64,000 bases of DNA from positions 1-64,000 of the forward strand of contig JAEURP010000009.1 of NCBI GenBank assembly GCA_016788585.1. The letters are read 5' to 3'. The DNA comes from Chthonomonas sp. (GTDB lineage: Bacteria > Armatimonadota > Fimbriimonadia > Fimbriimonadales > Fimbriimonadaceae). The translations under genes and the position numbers were made by a program. This document shows positions 1,126 through 3,513 of the stretch, piece after piece. The notes beneath the pieces are model-generated. The model had not been told where the DNA came from and searched no databases. It saw only the letters and a list, made by a program, of their open reading frames with translations. Position 1 is the first letter of the stretch. The number at the start of each line of letters is the position of its first letter.

Positions 1126-3513
1126 GTGCGGCGTGCGATTGCGTTGATGCTTCTGCTCCTCACCTCGATGGCGCATGCCCAAGAGGTGCAGATTCGCATG
1201 ATGGCGGGGGTGGGGCAGGGGATTCCGCCTAAGGAAGATACCAACCCACGATCTTTGGCTCGACGCGCCGTGTTTGAGGAGTTCCATCGCCAGAACCCCG
1301 ATGTGCGCGTGGTGAATGCGGGCGGCCTCGAAATGACCGGCGAGCGCGCCGAATCCATGTTCTTGATGAGCATGGCGGGCAACACGGCGCCCGACGTCAT
1401 GTACGTCAACTTCCGCCAGTATTACAACTACATCGATCAGGGCTTCTGCCGCCGCCTCGATGACCTAATCGCCAAAGACCCTGGTGTGATTAGCCGCGCG
1501 AATCCGGTCGCGTTGGAAGTGCTGAAGAGCTACAACGGCGGGATTTATGCTATTCCGTGGTTTCAGGTGGCGTTGGGACTTTACTATCGCCGAGATCACT
1601 TTCGGGAGGCGGGCCTCGACCCCAATCGTCCGCCGCGCACTTGGGACGAGCTTTACGAATACGCCCAAAAGCTGAGCATGAGCGCGGAAGGGCGGCTCGG
1701 CTACATCACGAGCAAGCCCGCGGGCTACCATTGGAGCAACTTCGTGTACCAAGCGGGCGGCACGGTGGTCAAGGAGAGCGAGGAGCCAGGCGTTTGGAAG
1801 AGCAATATCAACTCGCCCGAGGCCGCGCAGGCACTGGAGTTCTTCCGCAAGATGATGGTCGCCAAGTGGAAGGACGACAAGGGCAAGATGCGAGGGCCGG
1901 CGGGCGCGGTCAGTACCAATTTTAACGAGGACATTCGGTCGAGCAAGGCGAGCATGTGGTTCACCTATGTGGGCGATGTAATGCTGAACATGCAGGATCT
2001 GCCGCCTTCGGTGGTCGGAATCGCGGCGATGCCGAAGGGGCCGGCGGACCGGTCGAACGAGATCAACGCGGGCATGTGGGCGATCAACGCGCGGGTCACC
2101 GACCCGAAGAAGCTGGACGCGTGTTGGCGGTTCATCAAGTTCTTCGCCGGCGATGAAGCCGCACGGATCAACACGGAGTCGTTCGTGAACCTGGGATTGG
2201 GTTCTTTGGTGAACCCGACTTGGCTCCAGAAGTATGGCTACGAGGCGGAGCTTGCGCAGGTTGACCCGGAATATGTGAAGGCGAATGAGGAGCTCTTCGC
2301 GAAGGGGCATCCCGAGCCCTACGGGCGAAACATGAGCCAGGTTTATGTGATGCTCGACCAGGCCCTGGACCGTGCGGTGCTGGAGCCCAATACGCCCGCG
2401 GCGACGATCCTAGGCAAGGCGCAGAAGGACATGGACCAGGTGCTTCTGGGCTACACGCCACCGGAGGTATTGCAGACGCAGCGCGCGTGGGCCACGGGGA
2501 TTCTGATTGCGGTACTACTTGGACTAAGTGGTCTAGTTGGTCGACTGTTTTGGAAGGCCTCAAAAGCTCCAAAGCAGGTGCATTTAACCAAACGGTTAAA
2601 CAAGCCATTCATTGTTCTTTGCCTTGCTCCGGCGGCGCTCACGCTCCTTGTTTGGGCCTACTATCCGTTGCTGCGCGGCCTCATGATGGCGTTTCAGGAC
2701 TACCGCATCGTCACCGGCACGAAGTGGGTGGGGCTTGATAACTTCATCGCCGTGTTCACGCAGCCGATGTTCTACAAAGCCCTTGGTAACAGCTTCATCT
2801 ATGTTGGGCTGAGCATTGTAATTGGCTTCTTGCTTCCGATCTTCTTGGCTTTGGCTTTGAATGAGATTCCCAGGGCGAAAGTGTTCTTCCGCACCATCTT
2901 CTACTTGCCTGCGATGACGAGCCCGATCGTGATCGCGTTCCTGTGGCGGCAGTTTTACGACAAGACCGAGGCGGGGCTGCTGAACACGCTGATCTCTCCC
3001 TATGTCGACATCATCAACAACGTTTTTATCCGCAACCCAGAGGCGTTCTGGCCGAAGGCTTATGATTGGCTTGGCAATCCGCAGCTCGCCATGTTCGCGG
3101 TCGTGCTTCCGGGAATCTGGGCGGGGGCTGGGCCGGGTTCGATTCTTTATCTCGCCGCGCTGAAAAACATTCCGGACGAGCGCTATGAGGCCGCCGACCT
3201 CGACGGCGCGAACTGGCGACAGAAGATTCGTGCGATTACCCTTCCTGGACTCAAGCCGCTGATTCTCATCAACCTGCTCGGCGTCTTCATTGGCGGCTTC
3301 AAGGCGATGGAGAATATCTTCGTGCTCACGATGGGCGGGCCACTCGGAGCGACGCATACGATGGGCCTTGAGGTTTGGATGAACGCCTTTATGTATCTCA
3401 AGTTCGGCTACGCGACGGCGGCAGCGTGGGTGATGGGCAGCATTCTCATCGGCTTCACGCTGATTCAGATTCGAAGCCTATTGCGCATGCGGTTTACGGC
3501 GGCGAAGCTGTGA
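1126..3513 (+). CDS. ABC sugar transporter: fused solute-binding protein and MalF-type permease
   Basis: The 795-residue protein joins two normally separate subunits of a CUT1 carbohydrate importer. Residues 1-19 are a signal peptide (ending AHAQ). About 20-450 are a family 1 extracellular solute-binding protein. About 455-476 form an extra membrane helix, and about 477-490 a basic linker (KASKAPKQVHLTKRLNK). About 491-795 are a six-helix MalF/UgpA-like permease with the EAA loop (ERYEAADLDGANW, near 685). The extra helix returns the chain to the cytoplasm, where such permeases begin. The start is GTG. No second permease (MalG) or ATPase follows: the next gene is DUF554, overlapping by 4 bases. 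Partners must lie elsewhere. The domain calls are secure; the substrate is unknown. Confidence 0.85.
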   Translation: MRRAIALMLLLLTSMAHAQEVQIRMMAGVGQGIPPKEDTNPRSLARRAVFEEFHRQNPDVRVVNAGGLEMTGERAESMFLMSMAGNTAPDVMYVNFRQYYNYIDQGFCRRLDDLIAKDPGVISRANPVALEVLKSYNGGIYAIPWFQVALGLYYRRDHFREAGLDPNRPPRTWDELYEYAQKLSMSAEGRLGYITSKPAGYHWSNFVYQAGGTVVKESEEPGVWKSNINSPEAAQALEFFRKMMVAKWKDDKGKMRGPAGAVSTNFNEDIRSSKASMWFTYVGDVMLNMQDLPPSVVGIAAMPKGPADRSNEINAGMWAINARVTDPKKLDACWRFIKFFAGDEAARINTESFVNLGLGSLVNPTWLQKYGYEAELAQVDPEYVKANEELFAKGHPEPYGRNMSQVYVMLDQALDRAVLEPNTPAATILGKAQKDMDQVLLGYTPPEVLQTQRAWATGILIAVLLGLSGLVGRLFWKASKAPKQVHLTKRLNKPFIVLCLAPAALTLLVWAYYPLLRGLMMAFQDYRIVTGTKWVGLDNFIAVFTQPMFYKALGNSFIYVGLSIVIGFLLPIFLALALNEIPRAKVFFRTIFYLPAMTSPIVIAFLWRQFYDKTEAGLLNTLISPYVDIINNVFIRNPEAFWPKAYDWLGNPQLAMFAVVLPGIWAGAGPGSILYLAALKNIPDERYEAADLDGANWRQKIRAITLPGLKPLILINLLGVFIGGFKAMENIFVLTMGGPLGATHTMGLEVWMNAFMYLKFGYATAAAWVMGSILIGFTLIQIRSLLRMRFTAAKL

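Follow-up and report, generated by a model that had tools for sequence, protein, structure and literature searches.

The 64,000-nucleotide stretch analysed in this study (the window) encodes a solute-binding protein fused in one frame to a MalF-type permease. The fusion very probably supplies half of a CUT1-type (Type I) ABC importer, pairing with a lone MalG-type permease encoded elsewhere in the genome and driven by an orphan UgpC/MsmX-like ATPase. This split importer with a tethered binding protein is real and conserved, and it is probably functional. The window forms the start of contig C16 in a genome (G000) of 2.38 Mb that is 95% complete.

The fusion gene (1126..3513, plus strand, as are all parts given below) is a single GTG-started frame of 795 aa, its extent being supported by orthologue comparison. 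The first-pass annotation had read it as a signal peptide, binding domain, added helix, basic linker and permease with EAA loop, and this layout was confirmed by Pfam, hydropathy and the sequence itself. A signal peptide, judged by eye (residues 1-18, 1126..1179, with cleavage after AHA), precedes the solute-binding region (residues 19-450, 1180..2475), where SBP_bac_1 matches residues 47-346 (E 4.7e-30). C-terminal to it, BPD_transp_1 matches residues 567-779 (E 8.5e-12) within the MalF/UgpA-type permease (residues 491-795, 2596..3510); both matches are over the Pfam cut-off, and at E 0.001 they were the only ones, with no SBP_bac_3 or OpuAC-type domain. By hydropathy the added helix spans residues 453-478 (2482..2559), close to the 455-476 first estimated, and is followed by a basic cytoplasmic linker (residues 479-490, 2560..2595) and six hydrophobic regions within residues 491-795. 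The EAA loop (residues 688-707, 3187..3246) shows the consensus of such loops, EAA---G---------I-LP, and we take it to be the contact to the ATPase. In all 37 aligned orthologues the junction keeps a 19-residue segment with a mean Kyte-Doolittle value of at least 1.68 and a linker with a net charge of +2 to +7. The junction sequence drifts while its hydrophobic segment and positive linker are kept, as would be expected of a topological adaptor.

An SBP_bac_1-type binding domain and a MalF/UgpA-type permease with an EAA loop place the fusion with the CUT1 importers. The nearest solved structures by sequence are Thermotoga MalE3 and a trehalose/maltose-binding protein for the binding domain, and AlgM1 and SugA, more distantly MalF, for the permease part, whose best NCBIfam match is UgpA at 75 of 335 bits, under that model's own cut-off. 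An AlphaFold model built with 15 close sequences was too poor for use (pLDDT 54.5, pTM 0.41). The presumed substrate is an oligosaccharide; the genes around the fusion and the lone MalG gave no substrate clue. The separate-gene CUT1 systems (maltose, Ugp, AlgM and SugABC type) likewise combine SBP_bac_1, MalF- and MalG-type permeases and a MalK/UgpC-type ATPase, but in them the binding protein and permease are separate genes, which are adjacent in the Sinorhizobium locus discussed below.

Orthologues of the fusion were found in 76 of the 113 genomes of the order (Fimbriimonadaceae and kin, Armatimonadota), orthology being judged by eye from identity, which is 51-97% for the full-length orthologues. 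Seventy-two of them are uninterrupted frames of at least 793 aa. Three genomes hold partial matches (G005 and G050 at a contig edge, and G010), and one orthologue on a 2.99 Mb contig (L119, G085:C1:2619447-2621660) has an in-frame TGA near its end, giving a frame of 756 aa. Close relatives at 16 named loci belong to Fimbriimonadaceae, other Armatimonadota records and one unassigned bacterium. Orthologues occurring as two separate genes had been named in advance as evidence against a genuine fusion; no such case was seen among the 73 orthologues of sufficient length for the judgement. An assembly error or lost stop codon that joins two genes has a negligible probability and was rejected, given 72 uninterrupted orthologues in separate assemblies at identities down to 51%. 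The fusion is under purifying selection, with dN/dS against the closest genome of 0.01 for the binding domain, 0.10 for the junction and 0.02 for the permease. Against the next genome the values are 0.03 for the binding domain and 0.02 for the permease, the junction being saturated, and against G047 only the permease was computable (0.05).

As the first-pass annotation had stated, no MalG-like gene follows the fusion; the next genes encode a DUF554 protein, an MscS-type channel and a DPP IV-like peptidase. The surroundings include recA and priA, and glyS in family f2. Housekeeping rather than sugar genes as neighbours would suit a tethered binding protein that acts mainly as sensor or regulator of another importer and not as an importer subunit, yet conservation within the protein is among its highest in the EAA loop and throughout the permease part, and such a role is very improbable. 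As a separate observation, several genera share one arrangement, recA next to the fusion on the opposite strand and priA immediately downstream, a conserved order with no evident functional link.

It had also been proposed that the transporter may be split, and the search of the genome for a second permease supports this. A lone MalG gene of 507 aa was found at G000:C16:99253-100776, starting about 96 kb past the end of the fusion. It is one of eight BPD_transp_1 places in this genome. Four of these are Dpp- and Pst-type pairs (named from sequence), two form a pair on contig C22 (L009:3664-7841, G000:C22), another SBP-MalF fusion of 814 aa with a 578-aa MalG next to it, and the remaining two are the window fusion and the lone MalG. 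Besides the two fusions, SBP_bac_1 matches only a PstS-like protein in this genome. The second, different MalG-type permease that belongs to a CUT1 importer is present in the genome, co-occurrence and phylogeny pointing to the lone MalG as the probable partner.

The lone MalG, like the fusion, has an orthologue in 76 of the 113 genomes. Both genes occur in 72, neither in 33 and just one in eight, namely the fusion alone in G005, G010, G049 and G075 (73-89% complete) and the lone MalG alone in G038, G040, G041 and G065 (68-95% complete); Fisher's test gives p 1e-19, a statistic that ignores common descent. Joint absence is also seen inside genera that otherwise hold both, in g6 (G030 and G034, the latter 77% complete), g19 (G060) and g25 (G069 and G070). 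Where one contig carries both genes (22 genomes), they are never adjacent, their starts lying 10 kb apart in G009 and 43-644 kb apart in the other 21, and in the other 50 of the 72 genomes they are on different contigs. Fused importers of other families, the GlnPQ type included, are homodimers, and a fusion with no MalG-type gene beside it might likewise form a homodimer with two binding domains, the lone MalG having another role. The joint presence and absence of the two genes, together with the adjacency of their paralogues in G026 and G062, speaks against such a homodimer, which is improbable.

In these paralogous pairs, each a fusion and a MalG side by side, both members are closer to their counterparts in the split pair than to those in the C22 pair. 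G026 has the split pair as well, and G062 lacks it. In the MalF tree the fusion orthologues and the G026 and G062 paralogues form one starred clade (99/99), and in the MalG tree the lone MalGs and the corresponding paralogues form a starred clade (100/99) with the same members, in which the paralogues of G026 and G062 do not group together. The simplest history, as read from these sequences, would be that an adjacent pair was separated before families f1, f2 and f4 diverged. The G062 pair lies by genes for a GntR-type regulator, SDR, ROK, SIS and FAD oxidoreductase proteins, and these neighbours point to a sugar, at least for that paralogue.

Two CUT1 systems occur in this one genome, probably with one ATPase for both, and the window fusion might accordingly work with the C22 MalG, or with either MalG. 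The distribution over genomes argues otherwise: G001, G003, G004, G006 and G008 (f2) hold the fusion and lone MalG but lack a C22-type orthologue; the reverse, a C22-type fusion with neither member of the pair, is seen in ten genomes (G030, G034, G060, G062, G063, G069, G070, G083, G084 and G108). The MalG tree, too, places the lone MalGs with the paralogues adjacent to relatives of the window fusion and not with the C22 MalG, which was judged an unlikely partner. The C22 MalG itself has extra N-terminal hydrophobic segments and an outer insert unlike that of the lone MalG. MalG frames of 1471 and 1513 aa in G083 were set aside, since their length comes from reading through an SBP-MalF gene in another frame.

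Around the lone MalG, flagellin is a neighbour, or thymidine phosphorylase in the present genome and G047 only. At 11 loci (L010, L093, L100, L102-L105, L107, L108, L110 and L118) a gene of one cluster lies beside it on the opposite strand, which is flagellin by Pfam in the present genome. There the lone MalG also overlaps a pyrimidine-nucleoside phosphorylase gene by 4 nt (L010:4254-7048), and of the other loci compared, only that of G047 has a gene of that cluster after its lone MalG.

An ATPase with the MalK-type regulatory domain, the remaining part of a CUT1 importer, is present once in the genome and is an orphan (G000:C25:28247-29383, on another contig than the fusion); it scores over the cut-off of the UgpC subfamily model. 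A match was found in 103 of the 113 genomes and exactly one in 98, counts that rest on the OB_MalK domain and would miss ATPases lacking it. The nearest same-contig distance from the ATPase to either permease gene is 23.6 kb (positions checked). It is the likely motor of the split importer and probably powers every CUT1 importer in the cell. In the MsmX/MsiK type one orphan ATPase serves several CUT1 importers, MsmX being an ATPase common to several; an orphan ATPase is the likeness seen here, and its sharing would be a further one. In G026 a single OB_MalK ATPase stands beside 78 first-look candidates for the fusion query, in which any permease or SBP relative may count.

We infer that the fusion, the lone MalG and the ATPase assemble physically. 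In the proposed mechanism, a single added membrane helix links the sugar-binding protein to the MalF-type subunit and brings the chain back to the cytoplasm, and the fusion would join the MalG-type permease encoded about 96 kb away, the pair being powered by the orphan UgpC/MsmX-like ATPase with one tethered binding domain per translocator. Ligand would close the binding domain, which would dock on MalF-MalG; ATP binding would then open the domain and the sugar would pass, a cycle which is that of the maltose system.

The lone MalGs have a large loop between their first and second helices (residues 46-288 in the present genome, L010:4389-5117, G000:C16), which measures 239-281 residues in 35 sequences and is less conserved than the remainder (mean top-residue frequency 0.58 against 0.84). 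The loop should lie outside, because the N-terminus is positive in all 35 and no hydrophobic segment occurs inside it. Pfam GH42 matched 20 of the 35 loops at E 1, weakly (best 6.6e-5), with no match in the loop of the present genome. Among ten loops run singly, six matched GH42 at E 0.1, at about profile positions 147-217 of 376, one of the six being over the Pfam cut-off. Loop E-values near 0.001 can be due to chance, since the same scan also matched unrelated families, such as ODR4-like in three loops (best 0.0012). The loop profile gave ten matches to PDB sequences, all weak (E 0.039 to 1.1), nine to beta-galactosidase or beta-1,2-glucosyltransferase and one to beta/alpha-amylase, and the G062 paralogue matched GH42 (0.0046), beta-agarase (0.047) and beta-amylase (0.61) over overlapping stretches. 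A whole GH42 catalytic domain was rejected, just profile positions of about 147-217 of 376 being matched. As the catalytic residues of GH42 presumably fall outside that stretch, binding or docking is the likelier role of the loop than hydrolysis, and a docking or capping function is suggested for it; convergence of a short helical motif is a possible explanation of the GH42-like match. A bolder reading, which we consider rather unlikely, is that the importer is permanently split over three loci across the order and that its tethered binding protein has a counterpart in the MalG loop, a captured GH42-type segment that is catalytically dead and holds or hands over glycan. If true, this would be a membrane complex with two built-in sugar-handling elements that needs no free binding protein, and sugar binding by a GH42-like loop would give an importer a new kind of contact with its substrate.

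Fusions of this kind are not confined to the window. With the C22 fusion as query and any relative counted, 276 of the 291 genomes in the phylum gave a match at E 0.001; full-length uninterrupted frames were seen in at least 19 of 45 families, and in a further one the frame carries an in-frame TAG. Among 77 SBP_bac_1 matches (about 1e-14 or better) in 21 relatives, 39 are in frames of at least 770 aa, the permease part of which was checked in some only, and four are in others. Free binding proteins also occur in these relatives, because the remaining 34 matches are in frames of 400-610 aa. All nine other fused loci that were opened have SBP and MalF in one frame, and in eight a MalG of 271-314 aa lies beside the fusion; at L171 no MalG was present within the stretch examined, and a missing adjacent MalG is thus not unique to the window-fusion family. 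Plasmid pSymB of Sinorhizobium meliloti gave one of the best plasmid matches (28% identity); its locus keeps the gene order, but with SBP and permease as separate genes and 12 nt between them, a layout that hints at how fusions of this type may arise. As to whether fusion arose once or several times, the MalF tree needs five label changes, of which starred branches force one (weak backbone, long branches flagged). Outside the group, as at the pSymB locus, the earlier view that such a fusion is not usual for CUT1 importers holds; within the phylum it does not, fused CUT1 proteins being common there, and an importer with a MalE-MalF fusion has already been published.

A review, citing Licht et al. 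2019 (Res Microbiol 170:1-12), describes a fusion of MalE with MalF as competent for transport. The principle of an SBP-MalF fusion is already known for this reason and is not new alone. As far as its description goes, that importer resembles the window fusion in joining a CUT1-type SBP to MalF with a single binding domain per transporter, and the window system differs from it, by description only, in its unlinked MalG, the large MalG outer loop and the orphan ATPase. The organism was reportedly Bdellovibrio bacteriovorus. Importers of the GlnPQ/OpuA type use other binding-protein families (SBP_bac_3 or OpuAC-type) and homodimeric permeases, unlike the window system with its SBP_bac_1 domain and two different permeases; what is shared, in the terms of the GlnPQ abstract, is a binding domain covalently linked to the translocator. 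In the accessible part of its text, the 2014 genome paper on Fimbriimonas ginsengisoli gives a count of 17 sugar ABC sets with no PTS, and the words "fused" and "fusion" are absent. A literature search covering few subscription journals returned no account of fused CUT1 proteins in Armatimonadota, nor of a conserved split of such an importer or a glycosidase-like MalG loop.

The lasting separation of the importer parts is a less usual feature than the fusion. Two permease halves that evolve together without operon linkage offer a clear case of an obligate complex maintained over unlinked genes. Work on maltose-type importers has mostly concerned a free, abundant binding protein; with many Armatimonadota importers carrying a tethered one, one per translocator, stoichiometry and docking become testable in a natural system.
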